DNA from: a bacterium
Lineage (GTDB): Bacteria > Patescibacteriota > Minisyncoccia > CAIUEV01
NCBI GenBank assembly: GCA_021779255.1
Contig: JAJYBC010000005.1
Coordinates: 1 to 35,719 of the forward strand
Reading direction: 5' to 3'
Length of the DNA stretch: 35,719 bases
A model generated the notes under the pieces. The model saw only the letters and a program-made list of their open reading frames with translations, made no database searches and was not told the origin of the DNA. Shown piece by piece: positions 7,799-32,649 of this stretch. Numbering within the stretch: the stretch's first letter is position 1; every line of letters begins with the position of its first letter. The position numbers and the translations under genes are program-made.

Positions 7799-10700
7799 AT
7801 GGAAAATAAAAATAAAGAAAGATTAGAAAATATAATTTCAAAAGATAAGAGTGTAACTGAATTTCAGCTAGTTGATAAATTAAAATCGGTCAGGAAAATA
7901 TTTTTGATCATATTTCTGGCTATTTTTACTATTTCTTTCTATATAATTGTTTTCTTTTATTTCAAAAATCAATTCACGAATTCTCGCAATGTTCGAAATC
8001 AGGATATTCAGCTATCACAAAAATCGGCTCAGCCTACTGCCGGCCCAGTATCTTCAGTCTTAAAATTGTCCAAAGGCTATTATAAGTTGATTTCCAGAGA
8101 AGGTTATAATAAACTAGCTCCCCTAGGTGATGCTCCTTCAGCTAATAAACAAGTTATTCAAGAAGCGAAAGATTTGCTTGGCAAGGAAGGTATGGAGTTA
8201 AAAAATGTTTCTGGTGGTGTCAGAGAGCTTCTTCCTGACGAATTAAAGCCGGCAACTCAATTAATGCAAGAGCGCCAAGAGCTGGCCGATTCCGGAAAAA
8301 ATCTTGTTGATTATTTAACAAACTCATCTAGTCAAGTTAATGAGATCGGTGAGCTAAATTATGTTATTGGTGGTTCTACTAGTCCAAGTATCTTGCTTAA
8401 AGCCGATAAAATTACTGAATTAGACGCAACAAAACTACCAGCTATAGTCGAGACGGGAACCAGAGAAATATCTAACACAGCTAGGGACGCCTTAAGTGAG
8501 TTTCCTCGTAAAATTACAGATTTTGATGTTATTTCAACAAAAGATAATTTTGAGTTTTCTGGACTTTCAAAAACGATGTCTATGAATAATGGCATACCTT
8601 ATGAAAAATACTATATTCCCAATAGTGAAATACCTCAGGAGGCAAAAGCTGTGTTAAAAGATCCAATGGGGATAGCCGTTGATAATCGAAATAGCAGTGT
8701 CTACGGTGATATAAATGTTGTTAAAGCAACGGTTGAAGGCAAAGATTACTACGTGACTCGACCAGACGATGCTTTATCCAATAAAACCCTTGATGCCCTT
8801 TTAAGATATAAAGATGATCCGGAAAAATTTAATAAGGATTTTGGGAAAATTTATAATTTTGCAAATGAAATATATAGTAAAGACGAGCTTCTTACCAACA
8901 ATAAGGCGGTTCTAGAAGGTTTTCAAGGAAAATATAATAATAGTAAGCAAGTCCTTGACGATGGAATTAAAACTATTTTAAATGATGAATCCGCTTCTCC
9001 TGAACTTAAAAATTGGATTGAAAAAATAAAAGGAAATTTGGAAGAAGATACTGTTTTTGCCAAAGAAACAGGTAGCGGTGTAAAATCAGAAACGGAAAAT
9101 TTTGTTGTCGGTGCTGTTCCAGCAGGGGCAATAGTGGCCGTTGACTGGACGAGCGGAGAAAGCGATGGCAACTCAATTATAAAAACGCCAGACTCTCCTT
9201 ACAATTTATCGCCTCAAGAAATAGGGCAAATAGTAGCAACAACTTCGGGAGATTCTGCTGAGTCGTCCTCATGGCTTGATTCTTGGAATAAAGGAGCCGA
9301 CACTGTAAATGGTGCTCTCGAATCAGTCGGAACTTCAGTTCCTATTGGTTTTGGTGTCTTGGGCGCAATGGGGATAACAGGTGCGACTGATGCAGCGATG
9401 GCATTAGTTTCGCCACCGGTGGCGGCAGCGTTTATCCTTTCTCAAGCGGCTCTGGCACTACCAAGCGTAATCAACGATCCGAGTATTATTACTAAACCGC
9501 TTGGAGAAGCAACTCGAGCTACAAAGGATTTTTTTACTACTCCTCTTGATCCAAAGGGAACTTCTCCTCAAACTGATAGCTATGGTCAGCCTCAAAGTTC
9601 CGTAATTACTGATGATCAGGGGTCATTTACAGCGGTTAATTCAACGAATCAGTCAACATCGCAATTTTCCTCTCAACAACAAAGTTCTGTCCAACCGGGG
9701 GATGTTGTTGGAACGCCAGCCAGTGATAGTAAGATGTATACAGTTCAAAATGGACAAGTGGTTGATGAAAACGGCAATTCTACTCTAACTGCTTTTACTA
9801 AAGACCAAACCGTTTCTACTACAAACGATGCAGGGGATTTAGCAGGATCAAAAACCGGAGGTGAAATTTCTGAAAGTGCCTATAATTTTCAAACGGGAAT
9901 GAAAAAATATATGGACGCAAACCCCAGTGCCACACCGGAAGAAATGAAGAATGAGGCTAACAGAATAATCGATAATGACTCGTCTCTATCGTCCTCTCAA
10001 AAAGATGAATTGACTAAGTCTTTGCAGGAAAATTCTTTCGGCGGAACAAATTCTGGCAATGCCCCGCAAGAACTGCCTCCAATTGGACAGAGTCTCGAAG
10101 GAGCAACGGCTACTCCGGAACAAATGGCAACCGCTTCGGCGAATTTTCAAAAAGAAATGAAAAATTTCGACGATGCTAATCCAGACGCTTCAAACTATGA
10201 CAGACTGCTTAAAGCCAGTGAGATTATAGATAATCAACCTGACCTCCCCCCGGAAATAAAAGAAGTATTGAAAAATCAAGCGGCGGACTTTTATAATATT
10301 TTTAAAAATTATCAAGAACCAACCGGACCGAATACTGATCGGCAAGGAGAAGATATACTTAATCCAGATGGCACGCCTCTTAAGGATAAAAATGACGCAC
10401 AAATCCTCCCAGGGGACGAGCAACCATTGGGAAGATCTATAAATCCGGGAGGTACACAAGATGGCATTGTTACTCCAGATGCTAATGATCAGGCGATCCC
10501 TTTACAGTCTGGCAATCCTCTTCAAGGGACACTTGGTGTTACAACGATAGGAAGTGATAATAACGACTCTAGTCCTTTTAATAAGATTGAAAATGTGACG
10601 GAGCAAAGTAAGCTTGAAAGTACAACTACTAATGTCGGTTCAAGTAGCTCAACCCAAAATTCTTCCGAAAGGACGGTCTATCAGGTCGATCCAAGTACTG

Positions 10701-12829
10701 GTAAAATTATTAATGCGGACACGGGAGAATTTTTTCCGGGGGAAGGAAATATTATGGCTTCTCCGATGGGACCGGGGCACAAATCAAGACTTCCGCTTTC
10801 GGAAGAAAAAGGGGAAGACGGTATAACAACCACTACTTATGATGATGGAAGTCAAACAATGACGGATAACGCTGGAAAGGTTATTTATGATGGCAAAGTT
10901 GGAGGACAAGCGTCCGGCGTTCCCAATGCAGATGGTTCTTCTACACCAAACGTGACAGAACAGGATATCACAAGCCCACCAAGCCAACCCCAACAAACGG
11001 CTTCTGAAACGGGTGGAACTGTCTATCAAGTTGGTTCTGACGGTCAATTAATGAATCCTCAAACCGATGAAGTTTATCAAGGAAATACCTATGCCCAGTC
11101 TGATGGAGGCGAGGGAACAACGACAATTTCATCATCATCTCCTCCTAGAAATGTGGTTACTAATTATCCCCCATCCGATGGAAATTCAATCGGGTCTGCT
11201 AATAAAGTTACTACCAACCAACTTCCCCAAGAGCAAGACCCCAGTACTTTTAAAAATAAAGTCAGCACTAGTGATCCGTTTAATAACATTGAAAACGTTA
11301 AAACAGATGACGAAATAATTGCTCAAAGCGCAAGTGATTTTCAAAAGACAATGGAGGAATTTCAAAAAAATAATCCTTATGCTTCATCTAAGGAAATATT
11401 GGGCAAAGCAGAAGAAACTATCAATGCGGACAGCAACCTCCCTCAAGATTATAAAGATTATTTAATTGATTATCTTCCCCCTGAATCAAGTCAAAGCGGA
11501 GAAATAACCAAGGAAGAATACGACATTCAAAATAAAGTTGCGGAGTGGACAAAAAACAACCCTCTTGCCACGCAAGAAGAAATAAATTGGAAGACAGCAG
11601 ATATTATCGATAAAAATCCAGACCTTACCCAGGAAACAAAAGACAATTGGAAAGACTCTATTTTTGGTACGGGAGCAATAACAGAGAATGAATATAACTT
11701 TTTGAACGATCTAAATGATTTTAAGAAAAATAATCCCAATGCTACGGAGGCAGAAATAGAGGCTGAAGCTGAGAGAATTGTAAGCGTAGACCCAAACCTT
11801 AATACCCCAGAGGGAGAAATTACTCAGGAAGGACAAGATCTACTACAAACTCTTTATGATAAGCACGATCAGCCTTATCAGGCGGGTATAAACAACTATC
11901 AAGGAGGTGACAATATAGTTGATAAAAATGGGAAGCCACAGGATTCTTATAGTGCAAATCCTTATGGAGAAACGCCAATGTTTGTTCCAGTTGAAACTTT
12001 TCCGAACGATATCGAACCAAACAAAATAGGAGATAGCGATGTCACACCTAGAGCAGTTGACACTGAAACAACCTTTGGCAACTTAATACTTCGTCCAGAT
12101 GATACGATGTATACAAATAGCTTAACTCCCATTAATAAAGTAAATTCTTCTGAATCAGTTACAGAAGGCAGTAGCTCTGTGTCTAATGTTTCCTCTGTTC
12201 CTACGGGAGAGAGAGCGATGATTTCAAGCGGTGATCGGACCGCGGTTGATACGCCTAATTTCTGGGAGGTCGCAGATAATAAATATTCTTCTTCTTTTGC
12301 TTCATTGATTAATTTGCCTTCGGCAGAAGAAGTAGCTAATATTAAAGACAATCCGGTGAATACACCTTCACCGGATCCGGTGATTCCCGAATCAAAGCCG
12401 ATTGAGTCAGTTGGTCCGCCCACTTATTTAAGTAATTTTACCAATGCTAATAATGAACCACAAGGCAACGGGTCAACTTTGTATCCTTTTATTCCGAATT
12501 CAGAAACTCTAAATAAAATGTACGATTATGACCCTATTGAAAATAAAATTAAATTGAAAGACAATTGGCAAGAACTTTTAGGTATAGAAGGAACAGGGTT
12601 AAATATTAAAGGTTCCAGCACTGAAGAAATTATCGATGCTAAGGTTAAAACTGGTGGAATGACCGAAAAAGAAAAAGAGAAATTTATGCAAAAGGAAGAT
12701 AATCAAAGTGTCGAAGTACCAGACGATACAAATTTAAGAGATAGCCGAACAGGAGAAATTAAGCCCGATGATTCCGATAAAAAGCCGGATACGGTTAAAA
12801 AGCTCGAGGATGATTTACTGATGCCCTAG
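7799..12829 (+). CDS. Giant membrane-anchored, low-complexity putative surface protein with internal repeats
   Basis: 1676 aa; N-terminal TM (IFLIIFLAIFTISFYIIVFFYF); S/T/N/D/Q/G/P-rich body; about five copies of a ~50-aa helical repeat. Confidence 0.75.
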   Translation: MENKNKERLENIISKDKSVTEFQLVDKLKSVRKIFLIIFLAIFTISFYIIVFFYFKNQFTNSRNVRNQDIQLSQKSAQPTAGPVSSVLKLSKGYYKLISREGYNKLAPLGDAPSANKQVIQEAKDLLGKEGMELKNVSGGVRELLPDELKPATQLMQERQELADSGKNLVDYLTNSSSQVNEIGELNYVIGGSTSPSILLKADKITELDATKLPAIVETGTREISNTARDALSEFPRKITDFDVISTKDNFEFSGLSKTMSMNNGIPYEKYYIPNSEIPQEAKAVLKDPMGIAVDNRNSSVYGDINVVKATVEGKDYYVTRPDDALSNKTLDALLRYKDDPEKFNKDFGKIYNFANEIYSKDELLTNNKAVLEGFQGKYNNSKQVLDDGIKTILNDESASPELKNWIEKIKGNLEEDTVFAKETGSGVKSETENFVVGAVPAGAIVAVDWTSGESDGNSIIKTPDSPYNLSPQEIGQIVATTSGDSAESSSWLDSWNKGADTVNGALESVGTSVPIGFGVLGAMGITGATDAAMALVSPPVAAAFILSQAALALPSVINDPSIITKPLGEATRATKDFFTTPLDPKGTSPQTDSYGQPQSSVITDDQGSFTAVNSTNQSTSQFSSQQQSSVQPGDVVGTPASDSKMYTVQNGQVVDENGNSTLTAFTKDQTVSTTNDAGDLAGSKTGGEISESAYNFQTGMKKYMDANPSATPEEMKNEANRIIDNDSSLSSSQKDELTKSLQENSFGGTNSGNAPQELPPIGQSLEGATATPEQMATASANFQKEMKNFDDANPDASNYDRLLKASEIIDNQPDLPPEIKEVLKNQAADFYNIFKNYQEPTGPNTDRQGEDILNPDGTPLKDKNDAQILPGDEQPLGRSINPGGTQDGIVTPDANDQAIPLQSGNPLQGTLGVTTIGSDNNDSSPFNKIENVTEQSKLESTTTNVGSSSSTQNSSERTVYQVDPSTGKIINADTGEFFPGEGNIMASPMGPGHKSRLPLSEEKGEDGITTTTYDDGSQTMTDNAGKVIYDGKVGGQASGVPNADGSSTPNVTEQDITSPPSQPQQTASETGGTVYQVGSDGQLMNPQTDEVYQGNTYAQSDGGEGTTTISSSSPPRNVVTNYPPSDGNSIGSANKVTTNQLPQEQDPSTFKNKVSTSDPFNNIENVKTDDEIIAQSASDFQKTMEEFQKNNPYASSKEILGKAEETINADSNLPQDYKDYLIDYLPPESSQSGEITKEEYDIQNKVAEWTKNNPLATQEEINWKTADIIDKNPDLTQETKDNWKDSIFGTGAITENEYNFLNDLNDFKKNNPNATEAEIEAEAERIVSVDPNLNTPEGEITQEGQDLLQTLYDKHDQPYQAGINNYQGGDNIVDKNGKPQDSYSANPYGETPMFVPVETFPNDIEPNKIGDSDVTPRAVDTETTFGNLILRPDDTMYTNSLTPINKVNSSESVTEGSSSVSNVSSVPTGERAMISSGDRTAVDTPNFWEVADNKYSSSFASLINLPSAEEVANIKDNPVNTPSPDPVIPESKPIESVGPPTYLSNFTNANNEPQGNGSTLYPFIPNSETLNKMYDYDPIENKIKLKDNWQELLGIEGTGLNIKGSSTEEIIDAKVKTGGMTEKEKEKFMQKEDNQSVEVPDDTNLRDSRTGEIKPDDSDKKPDTVKKLEDDLLMP
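9872..11809 (+). repeat. Region of about five imperfect ~50-aa repeats within the giant ORF (discontinuous)
   Basis: Units near 9872-10033, 10123-10290, 11321-11480, 11506-11661 and 11678-11809; shared pattern YNFQ..M..F...NP.AT.EE....A..IID..P.L....KD.L. Confidence 0.75.
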
Positions 12830-26878: not shown

Positions 26879-26995
26879 GTAGCCCAAAGTCGCAAAAATC
26901 CGTGAGTTTTTATTTGGTTTCTGTCCTTGAAAGGACGGTTTGCCAGAAGCCATCCTCACGGAGAAGCGACTGGGCTACCAAACCGTCCTTTTAAT
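26879..26995 (+). ncRNA. Candidate structured leader RNA / riboregulator upstream of the serine recombinase
   Basis: Nested helices GTAGCCCA/TGGGCTAC, GTCGC/GCGAC, TCCGTGAG/CTCACGGA, TGGTTTCTG/CAGAAGCCA, plus a competing 13-bp AAAGGACGGTTTG/CAAACCGTCCTTT helix. Confidence 0.6.
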
Positions 26996-27002
26996 TATAT
27001 CT

Positions 27003-28745
27003 ATGAAAAAAGATACAACAGAGATTAAATACATCCTTTACTGTCGTAAAAGTACCGAGAACGAAGACCGACAGGTGCTTTCTCTTGATGACCAAAAAAG
27101 GGAATTGGAAGTCGTGGAAAGAAGAGAAAATTTAAAAGTAATTGAAAGATACGGTGGAGTCGAAAAAGGAGAGAGCCATACTGCCTTCAAAAGAGGTCGC
27201 CCCATCTTTAACCTTATTATGCAGAAAATTGAAGCGGGTAGAGCTAGTGGATTACTAGTTTGGCACGCAAATCGTATAGCTCGCAATGCTTTTGATGGTG
27301 GATGGATTATCACAGCTATGGATGAAGGGAAACTTTTGGAAGTAAAAACCCCATCTAGAACATACAGAAATACTCCTGATGATAAATTTTTCTTACAACT
27401 AGAATTCGGCATAGCCAAAAAATCATCTGATGATAGCAGTGTTGCGATAAAACGAGGTCTCAAAACTAAATTACAAATGGGATGGTATCCAAGTCGAGCA
27501 CCTCTTGGCTATCTCAATACCATAATAAAGGAAAAAGGAGCAAATGAGGTTATCAATGACCCAGAAAGATTTGATATAGTTAAGCGGATGTGGAATTTAA
27601 TGCTAACGGGAAACTATACCCCACCTCAAATACATAAAATTGCAAAAGAAAAATGGAAGTTTAAAACTAGGACTACAAAAAGATTTATTGGTAAGCCACT
27701 TTCAAAAAGTGGGATTTATCGTATTTTTACCAATCCTTTTTACTATGGCTGGTTTGAATATGGAAAACCAAAACAGTTATATAAAGGCAATCACAATCCA
27801 ATGATTACAGAAGAAGAATTTGACCGAGTGCAAAAACTGCTTGGGAGAGAAGGCAGACCAAGAGCGAAAGAACACCGTTTTGCTTTTACTGGTTTAATGA
27901 AATGTGGTAACTGCGGAGCGATGATAACTGCAGAAGAAAAAATTAAGAAACAAAAGAATGGCAATGTACATCATTATGTTTATTATCATTGTACTAAGAA
28001 AAAAGACGAAAAGTGCCCAGAAAAAACAATTGAGCTTAAAAACTTAAACACCCAAATTGACGCATTGGTCAAAAATTTAACCATATCTGATAAGTTCAAA
28101 GACTGGGCAATTAAGTATTTGCACGAAATCCGCCAGAATGAAGCCCAGAGCAACGAAAATATTTTAGAAAATAAACAAAAAACCTTACTCCAACTAACAA
28201 AACAGTTAGATAGCCTTTTGCTAAAATATACTTCTCCAGAAAATGAGAATGGAGGGTTTATTACTGACCAAGAATATCAATCTTTAAAAGTGCGTTTAAT
28301 TAAAGAGAAAACAATAATTGAAAATGAATTAAAATCTCACGGTCAGAAAGTTGAGGAATGGGTCGAATTAAGCGAGAAAACTTTTAACTTCGCCCGTTAC
28401 GCTCAAATTTGGTTTAATAAAGGTAATATGGAAACAAGAAGAGCAATATTTTCCGCTTTAGGTTCGCACCTAATTATAAAAGACCAAAAACTCAATATAG
28501 AACTACATCCTTACTTCAAAATCATCTTTGAAAATCTGCCAAACGCAGAGAAAGAGCTTCTTAAGGTTAGAACCTCTGGAAATACAGTAAATAAGGGACA
28601 AATTACCGAAATTTTGGCAAAGTGTCCCACTTTGCGGAGAGGGAGGGATTCGAACCCTCGAGGCTCTTTCGAACCTAACACCTTAGCAGGGTGCCCCTTT
28701 CGACCACTCAGGCACCTCTCCTTTTTTGTATTCTGGCAATTTTAA
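27003..28745 (+). CDS. Large serine recombinase (site-specific integrase)
   Basis: YILYCRKSTENEDRQVLSLDDQKREL...LLVWHANRIARNAFDGG resolvase domain, recombinase domain, zinc ribbon CGNCGAMIT...CTKKKDEKCPEK. Start taken as ATG 27003, not TTG 26940, because 26940 lies inside the structured leader. Confidence 0.93.
   Translation: MKKDTTEIKYILYCRKSTENEDRQVLSLDDQKRELEVVERRENLKVIERYGGVEKGESHTAFKRGRPIFNLIMQKIEAGRASGLLVWHANRIARNAFDGGWIITAMDEGKLLEVKTPSRTYRNTPDDKFFLQLEFGIAKKSSDDSSVAIKRGLKTKLQMGWYPSRAPLGYLNTIIKEKGANEVINDPERFDIVKRMWNLMLTGNYTPPQIHKIAKEKWKFKTRTTKRFIGKPLSKSGIYRIFTNPFYYGWFEYGKPKQLYKGNHNPMITEEEFDRVQKLLGREGRPRAKEHRFAFTGLMKCGNCGAMITAEEKIKKQKNGNVHHYVYYHCTKKKDEKCPEKTIELKNLNTQIDALVKNLTISDKFKDWAIKYLHEIRQNEAQSNENILENKQKTLLQLTKQLDSLLLKYTSPENENGGFITDQEYQSLKVRLIKEKTIIENELKSHGQKVEEWVELSEKTFNFARYAQIWFNKGNMETRRAIFSALGSHLIIKDQKLNIELHPYFKIIFENLPNAEKELLKVRTSGNTVNKGQITEILAKCPTLRRGRDSNPRGSFEPNTLAGCPFRPLRHLSFFVFWQF
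28635..28721 (-). tRNA. tRNA-Ser(GCU)
   Basis: Acceptor GGAGAGG/CCTCTCC, anticodon loop CTGCTAA, long variable arm, T-arm GAGGGTTCGAATCCCTC; 3' CCA not encoded in the present form (G-CAA). Confidence 0.92.
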
Positions 28746-28750
28746 TAACT

Positions 28751-28835
28751 TTTTCTCAGCTACTTTAAAATTTTGGAAGTGGAAAAGTCACCCTGCCGGG
28801 GGCACACTTCCAAAATTTCAAAGTAGCTGAGAAAA
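28751..28835. repeat. Long inverted repeat with conserved 23-nt loop (copy 1)
   Basis: 31-bp arms 28751-28781/28805-28835 with one mismatch; loop GAAAAGTCACCCTGCCGGGGGCA. Confidence 0.9.
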
Positions 28836-28911
28836 CATTGCCAAATATGGCAAAAAATTGCCAAAACACAAAAAGTAATGCGAAAAATTAAAAGCGGCTT
28901 AAGTAAACGTT

Positions 28912-31032: not shown

Positions 31033-32025
31033 TTATTCCGCCATAGCGGTCATGCCGGCCGATATTTCCAATAATTCTTTGGTGATGCCGGCTTGTCTAG
31101 CTAAATTGTAGTAGAGATTGAATTCGGTCATCATATCTTTGGCAACATCGGAAGCATTTTTCATAGTGAGCATACGAGAAGAAAATTCGGAAGCTTCCGC
31201 TTCCAAAAAAGCTTGATAAATTTGACTCTCAATCATGCGAGGGAGAATAAGATTTAAAACTTTTTCTTTTGACGGTTCAAAAATATAGTTGGTTTCTTCG
31301 GCTTTTTCCTCCATCTGATCCATTTCTTCTCTTCTTTTTTCCTTTAAATTATTTTCTTTGCCAAGTTCTTCGATTTGTTTTTCTAAGTCTTGACGAGAAA
31401 AAGGTAATATTTGGCGAATTTTTGGTTCGTTTCTAATGACGGAAACGAAATTGGTATAAGCTACAACAATTTTATCGCATTGGCCGGACGTATATTTATC
31501 AATCAACAGTTGAGACAGCGGATAAATATTATCCAAACCCAACTGTTCGTTCCAATCAAGAAAACTGGCTACTACTTTTTGTCCAGCTCGAACCAAAGCT
31601 TCCGTTCCTTTTTGTCCAATGGTAATAAATTCTATCTCCACTTTTTGGGGATCAATTTTCGGTTCAATTTTGATTTTTTTAACTCGATTAGTTGCGATAC
31701 TTTCGGGATTTTTAACTTGTTCTAGAATTTTTTTAATCAATTGAGAATTTAATCCGCCACAGAGTCCACGGTTAGAAGAGAAAAGAACCACGCAAATTTT
31801 TTGAACGGGTCGAACTCGAAGCAAAGGGTTGCCTTCCCTAACCGATTCTGAAATATTAACCAGTATTTCCCAAGCCACTTCTGAATAAGATCGAGAGGAA
31901 ACTGTCTTAGCGATAATTTTTTTCATTTTGGCGGCGGCCACCATTTCCATCGCTTTGGTTATCTTGCGAATGTTGCCAACTGATTTAATTCTTTTTTTAA
32001 GCTCTTTTGCTCCACCTTTTGCCAT
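31033..32025 (-). CDS. atpG: F1 ATP synthase gamma subunit
   Basis: N-terminus LKKRIKSVGNIRKITKAMEMVAAAKMKK; C-terminus SRMLTMKNASDVAKDMMTEFNLYYNLARQAGITKELLEISAGMTAM. Confidence 0.93.
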   Translation of the reverse strand: MAKGGAKELKKRIKSVGNIRKITKAMEMVAAAKMKKIIAKTVSSRSYSEVAWEILVNISESVREGNPLLRVRPVQKICVVLFSSNRGLCGGLNSQLIKKILEQVKNPESIATNRVKKIKIEPKIDPQKVEIEFITIGQKGTEALVRAGQKVVASFLDWNEQLGLDNIYPLSQLLIDKYTSGQCDKIVVAYTNFVSVIRNEPKIRQILPFSRQDLEKQIEELGKENNLKEKRREEMDQMEEKAEETNYIFEPSKEKVLNLILPRMIESQIYQAFLEAEASEFSSRMLTMKNASDVAKDMMTEFNLYYNLARQAGITKELLEISAGMTAMAE

Positions 32026-32061
32026 AAAATAATACGATAATTTTCAAAATGTAATAAGAAT

Positions 32062-32140
32062 GTTTTTAGCTATATATTTATTTTTAGTAGAGAAGTCACC
32101 CTGCCGGGGGCATACCAAAAATAAATATATAGCTAAAAAC
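32062..32140. repeat. Long inverted repeat with conserved 23-nt loop (copy 2)
   Basis: 28-bp arms 32062-32089/32113-32140 with one mismatch; loop GAGAAGTCACCCTGCCGGGGGCA. Confidence 0.9.
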
Positions 32141-32193
32141 TCCAAAAAGAAAAAGAAATAAATGATTAGAAATTTTAAATTTAATGCAAGAGG

Positions 32194-32649
32194 TTACTTT
32201 TGAAAGTATCCAGCTAACAATTCATCAACCATGTGAGGACGGACTTTCTCGTAAATATTGCCGTTAACAACTAGAAGCGGTCCTCTTTGACAACGACCTT
32301 GACAACTAGTTGTTTTAACTTCTAATTTAACATTAAGATTGCGATCGGCTTTGGTTCCAAGGAAATTTTCCACTTCCTGCAAAACTTGTTTGGCGCCATT
32401 TAATTCGCAAGGAGTGCTCATACAGACTTTAACTTCCAAATTGGGTTTGGGCTTAATCCGAATATCGTCAAAAAAACTCACCGCGCTGAAAGCTTCGGCG
32501 GGACTGAGAGAAAAATAGCGAGCCAAATGGTAAAGATTTTCTTGAGAAATATAACCGAAAACTTCATTAATTTTTTTACTGGCCGGCAAGAAATTTTCTC
32601 GATCGGGATTAAATCCTAAAAGAATTTTTTGAACGGAAGGAAGAAGCAT
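32194..32649 (-). CDS. NuoE-like thioredoxin-fold [2Fe-2S] protein
   Basis: Cysteines in CMSTPCELNGA and TTSCQGRCQRGPLLVVNG; NuoE-like N-terminal helices. Confidence 0.85.
   Translation of the reverse strand: MLLPSVQKILLGFNPDRENFLPASKKINEVFGYISQENLYHLARYFSLSPAEAFSAVSFFDDIRIKPKPNLEVKVCMSTPCELNGAKQVLQEVENFLGTKADRNLNVKLEVKTTSCQGRCQRGPLLVVNGNIYEKVRPHMVDELLAGYFQK

Follow-up and report, generated by a model that had tools for sequence, protein, structure and literature searches.

A dispersed family of long hairpins with a constant apex and covarying stems in a Moranbacteria-type genome

Introduction

Several kinds of dispersed hairpin-forming sequence have been described. Bacterial MITEs (BOX, RUP and others) are AT-rich, intergenic sequences with inverted arms and strong folding that occur in both orientations; their copies are united by terminal sequence in common with a transposon, and target duplications are usual (PMC3049150). 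REPs, the dispersed intergenic palindromes of REP/RAYT systems, make use of a folded strand and have a partner Y1 gene; they are 20-40 bp long and carry a GTAG or CGTC tag (PMC3733652). The hairpin elements of sponge mitochondria are short, non-coding, intergenic and dispersed, are thought to be mobile, and have conserved stems and varying loops (PMC2800124). Double hairpin elements of Allomyces, as summarized there from Paquin et al. 2000, have no flanking duplications, and an RNA intermediate was suggested for them. In template-switched hairpins (PMC8794818; Nematomorpha mitochondria, PMC6649704), perfect arms change in concert by multi-base compensatory changes at separate loci. Here we describe a long hairpin in a 35,719-nucleotide stretch of bacterial DNA (the window, meaning the whole stretch analysed) and the family to which it belongs, and compare them with these systems.

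Results

No long inverted repeats in the window are stronger than the hairpin under study, which we call copy 2, and a second hairpin, copy 1. The features that concern us are as follows.

32062-32140, minus strand: copy 2, a long hairpin with arms at 32062-32089 and 32113-32140; minus is the strand taken as folded (sense)
32090-32112, minus strand: constant apex of copy 2, reading TGCCCCCGGCAGGGTGACTTCTC on the minus strand, with a 4-bp mini-stem, the hexaloop CCGGCA and a 3' bulge
28751-28835, minus strand: copy 1, a 31-bp hairpin with the same apex (28782-28804); matches covariance model R1 at 84.3 bits
28838-28853, minus strand: small hairpin TTGCCA-AATA-TGGCAA adjoining copy 1, from sequence, folds and comparison
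28723-28743, minus strand: one arm of the outer helix of copy 1, pairing with 28854-28874 (inverted repeat I5, 90% complementary)
28854-28874, minus strand: the other arm of this helix, from the inverted repeat and the fold
31033-32025, minus strand: gene for the ATP synthase gamma subunit (PF00231, E 7.9e-80); it starts 36 nt from copy 2, which precedes it
32194-32649, minus strand: gene for a thioredoxin-like [2Fe-2S] ferredoxin (PF01257, E 9.4e-28); copy 2 lies 53 nt past its end
28634-28721, minus strand: tRNA-Ser(GCT), neighbour of copy 1

Copy 2 has a 23-nt loop inside a 28-bp stem with one mismatch, just as the original prediction described it, and matches R1 at 32061-32141 on the minus strand with 88.4 bits (E 6e-19; plus strand, 43.2 bits). 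The near-identical loop reported for copy 1 is also there, at 28782-28804 with one mismatch, where shuffled sequences lead one to expect 0 matches. Beside copy 1, a reading frame of 601 aa (window 26940-28745) encodes a large serine recombinase (PF00239, PF07508, PF13408) and overlaps the opposite-strand tRNA-Ser gene, possibly marking the end of an integrated element. Elsewhere in the window, a 1676-aa open reading frame (7799-12829) has zero Pfam matches.

The host is a Moranbacteria-type bacterium with an assembly of 844 kb in 50 contigs (94% complete). Judged by RpoA, a Moraniibacteriota MAG is the named relative closest to it, the two proteins being 66% identical. Its genome contains the 20-nt loop core AAGTCACCCTGCCGGGGGCA at 27 sites with at most three mismatches, 20 of them exact, and the reversed control at none. 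Twenty-five of these sites fit one covariance model at E<1e-12, 10 of the fitting copies having been used in building it; the other two are degenerate (C6:23814) or truncated (C48:39466). The model adds a diverged copy (C48:33974-34046) whose apex ends in CGACAGGATGACTTGTC. The original prediction of a dispersed family with a near-constant loop and varying but paired stems is thus fully supported by the number of sites and by the covariation described below; there are 27 loop sites and not only two copies genome-wide. An adapter or assembly artefact was rejected as the source of the family on the grounds that stems stop near 30 bp, follow a common consensus and show strand-specific wobble.

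Read along the folded strand, which in the window is the minus strand, members of this family, family A, run from a T-rich 5' arm through a mini-stem and hexaloop (TGCCC-CCGGCA-GGGTG) and a brief 3' bulge, in most cases ACTTCTC or ACTTCG, to an A-rich 3' arm, and stems are 28-34 bp in most copies. Copy 1 and three more copies have in addition an outer helix, a joint of GAAATT type and a small TTGCCA-like hairpin, which together give a three-way junction; for copy 1 this is the predicted fold. The outer helix in these copies likewise varies yet pairs. The hairpin at 28838-28853 is common to a family A subgroup and to all copies of a second family in the host genome, family B. This has five copies with the loop GGGTTTGCTACGCAAAA, 29-bp covarying stems and a three-way junction with conserved joints; three of them have a family A copy 76-115 nt away, in the opposite orientation.

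L033:5182-5256, L035:4904-4978, L035:5586-5660, L045:8727-8801 and G000:C42:2743-2759: family B copies

The stems of the two window copies had been called essentially unrelated, which is wrong. Family A stems are diverged homologues with a mean pairwise identity of 51% at arm positions 6-28 (counted from the loop as anchor) and a common loose consensus consisting of AGTG/CACT beside the loop, a T-rich 5' arm and, some 19-22 nt away from the loop, a block that contains G/C. Watson-Crick pairs are formed at 96% of positions between the arms of one copy versus 55% when the arms come from different copies. A MAFFT alignment (A1) misplaced the arms, and a structure-fitted alignment (A7) was used alongside the loop-anchored count. 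In this alignment of 25 copies, which is biased to structure and with which the count anchored on the loop alone agrees, 98.1% of cells are paired versus 69.1±1.1% in shuffles. Both sides are altered in 26 of 33 stem pairs, the covariation score is 0.731 versus 0.166±0.015 in shuffles, and sliding the partner by 1-3 columns lowers pairing to 44-54%. Judged as a structured RNA, the family therefore shows covariation beyond both the shuffled and the slid controls.

The pairs that are not Watson-Crick are informative about strand. Among 22 well-fitting copies they comprise, on the minus strand, 16 G.U, 2 A.C and 8 G.A cells, the last being tandem G.A within one subgroup. The 16:2 ratio of G.U to A.C has p=0.0013, a value somewhat too small since the copies are related; on the corresponding strand the ratio is 7:3 in family C (see below) and 2:0 in family B. 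Because these leftover mismatches favor G.U over A.C, we take the minus strand as the folded one. The A opposite C remarked on in both window copies is real, and on the minus strand it reads G.U, a bias found family-wide. On this sequence evidence, the minus strand is the folded molecule and the A opposite C its mirror image.

Covariation beneath an unchanging apex, with G.U favored on one strand, is the classical sign of selected RNA structure. The copies might then be structured non-coding RNAs or cis-acting RNA elements that function in situ, with stems changing by stepwise compensation under selection and an apex bound by a protein or RNA. The three-way junction with its conserved joints in a family A subgroup and in family B fits this explanation, as does the apical bulge, which the diverged copy retains. 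However, the strand of the copies is inconsistent with respect to neighboring genes (11 with and 16 against the upstream gene, in tandem, convergent and divergent contexts), and the loops are not conserved in other genera. The manner in which the stems change also argues against it: the 25-copy alignment contains 217 cells altered on both sides versus about 17 altered on one side, and comparisons of closest copies yielded 38 compensated transversions and 31 compensated transitions. One-sided intermediates are too few, and compensated transversions too many, for stepwise change. We consider functional RNAs of this type rather unlikely, while noting that strong selection on structured RNA could yield the same covariation.

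Stepwise change via G.U hardly yields UA-to-AU swaps without mismatched intermediates, whereas copying of one arm from the other does. Full compensation, by transversion in half of the cases, is far more frequent than a change on one side only, and this pattern suggests that arm-to-arm copying lies behind it. Template switching that makes and mends hairpins leaves the same signature in RNA hairpins (PMC8794818), and concerted arms are described in Nematomorpha mitochondria (PMC6649704).

As far as can be judged, family A sites are intergenic; six overlap nothing but mechanical open reading frame calls, which either are short or begin at a distant, doubtful start. In the stretches read around the copies, the neighbors are mostly core or housekeeping genes together with several tRNA genes. 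Orientation relative to genes or GC skew showed nothing consistent, and family A has no replication-strand preference (12 of 27 on the G-rich strand); the corresponding figure for family B, 0 of 5 (p=0.06), comes from too few copies to use. Ordinary intrinsic transcription terminators are likewise long intergenic hairpins, and some copies are near gene ends, but this identity was rejected and is hardly credible: the 3' arm is A-rich and as a rule there is no U run, seven sites lie between divergent neighbors, others lie inside a ribosomal-protein operon, and terminators would not be expected to have a constant 20-nt loop.

Within that operon, 299 nt separate S17 from L14 and 327 nt separate L14 from L24, and both spacers contain a single element from each of families A and B; the same spacers in five relatives measure 13-153 nt and contain neither. 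This is suggestive of insertion, although the relatives belong to other genera and so provide no true empty site. Homology among copies ends near the hairpin and the flanks are unrelated. No target duplication of fixed length was found, the mean direct repeat being 2.5 nt versus 1.8±0.3 nt in shuffles; a 20-bp direct repeat does enclose the copy at L043:2779, and a 13-bp one the copy at L031:874.

A linked transposase or nuclease recognizing the loop, which the original prediction had envisaged, was not found among the mostly housekeeping neighbors of the copies. A retro-element was rejected since RVT_1 is not matched in the host genome (94% complete). This genome does have two Y1_Tnp genes, and RAYTs move dispersed intergenic palindromes, which raises the question of whether the hairpins are REP-like palindromes moved by the genome's own Y1 (RAYT/TnpA-REP) transposases. 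We regard this as very improbable. The palindromes beside the two Y1 genes are particular to those genes, neither of which is a partner with a palindrome matching family A; no GTAG/CGTC-type tetranucleotide or other common motif is present at the hairpin base in 26 copies; the lack of a replication-strand preference in family A also counts against it, and a related genome with 16 family C copies (G002) gave no Y1_Tnp match. REP/RAYT was accordingly rejected, and identity with terminators or an Rfam family was not supported either. Rfam searches of the window and 13 loci gave only tRNA above the gathering score; matches below threshold were to microRNA models and reflect the long AT-rich hairpin. 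No hairpin repeat family in Moranbacteria or CPR was found in the open-access literature.

The Y1 loci themselves deserve a brief description. One gene (L048:3280-4224, on G000:C48) is enclosed by 23-bp tandem repeats in inverted arrays and by two AGAGACGGGTCTCAGACCCGTCTCT copies, and has the look of a RAYT that carries its own REP and is flanked by satellites. The other (L049:2890-3515, on G000:C1) has the palindrome GTAGGGGCGTATTGCAATACGCCCCTAC, a typical GTAG-tagged REP, with one copy within the reading frame region.

Conservation in relatives, which had been named as a check on the prediction, came out in two ways. The family A loop is absent as such from 54 relatives, in which a single genome of the host's GTDB family has one 3-mismatch site that does not fold, and R1 has zero matches in relatives. 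Scans of IMG/VR and other GTDB genomes, which may omit a query's own and very near genomes, found no exact loop. On the other hand, two relatives, G001 and G002, representing two genera of the host's GTDB family, hold analogous families with other loops, and each loop, those of the host included, was met in one genome only. Family D in G001 has eight copies (L144-L151) with a 34-nt loop containing an internal palindrome and stems of about 35 bp that vary less and have no strand bias (8:7); it is nearer to an ordinary MITE. Family C in G002 has 16 copies (L075-L090) with the loop TGATTTTCNNNTAGRAAATCCC and nearly perfect stems of mostly 36-54 bp, in which 97% of positions are Watson-Crick between a copy's own arms versus 56% across copies. 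Short samples of G003, G004, G005 and G007 revealed no constant-loop family. Long perfect palindromes with a common GGGTCTGTTGCCAAAT are present in G007 (L126:2382-2430 and L129:5951-6033), and a similar palindrome, AAGGGTCTTGCC, in G004 (L091:203-261); these are perhaps another dispersed family.

The outer arms of family C are all different, and some extend to the last bases of the neighboring gene. These arms, 36-54 bp long and perfect, would fit construction on site, as in the second option of the original prediction: what inserts would be a short apex carrying a few inner pairs, and fold-back synthesis would copy the host flank in inverted form. By contrast, the arms of families A and B keep a position-specific consensus over their full length despite unrelated flanks, and host-derived arms are in our estimation improbable.

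Discussion

Family A is a real dispersed foldback family with covarying stems and an apex that is probably recognized. Our preferred explanation, to which we assign a probability of roughly 0.5, is that copy 2 represents a non-coding foldback element of about 80-130 nt that spreads. Its route to new positions between genes would be a folded single strand, either ssDNA or RNA, the apex of which would be recognized by a putative trans-acting factor. The arms would need only to fold; they would be free to change because hairpin-templated (template-switch) synthesis would copy a change in one arm to the other, and leftover changes would be tolerated where they form G.U, or tandem G.A in one subgroup, on the folded strand. 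We infer mobility from the dispersion of the copies and the long ribosomal-protein spacers. The alternatives originally posed, selection on structure or a process that regenerates the arms, were the right dilemma, and the data show signs of both.

The analogous families in relatives point to a type of spreading hairpin element that has not been described before. More tentatively, Moranbacteria may harbor a lineage-wide class of mobile, apex-recognized foldback elements with species-specific loops; a putative enzyme would move them as folded single strands, and copying between the arms would keep their pairing perfect.

With 25 parallel copies in one small genome, the family is a test bed for how changing long stems remain paired. 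Stepwise compensation predicts G.U intermediates and mainly transitions, whereas templated copying predicts double transversions and no intermediates; these copies show many double transversions without intermediates. Should mobility be confirmed, bacteria would gain a foldback element whose loop is constant and whose stem is free, and there would be a clue to the agent that moves DNA in this group with its small genomes.

Family A resembles bacterial MITEs in its inverted arms, non-coding nature and dispersed copies. MITEs have ends in common with an autonomous transposon; the genes in the stretches read around our copies are mostly housekeeping ones. Family A differs from MITEs in that the apex is constant, the ends vary and there is no regular duplication. 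It shares dispersed intergenic palindromes and use of a folded strand with REP/RAYT systems and differs in having long variable stems and neither a tag nor a partner gene. Template-switched hairpins are alike in the concerted change of their arms and unlike in forming no dispersed family with one constant loop. The mitochondrial hairpin elements come closest in behavior; those of sponges have conserved stems and varying loops, and here the arrangement is the reverse.
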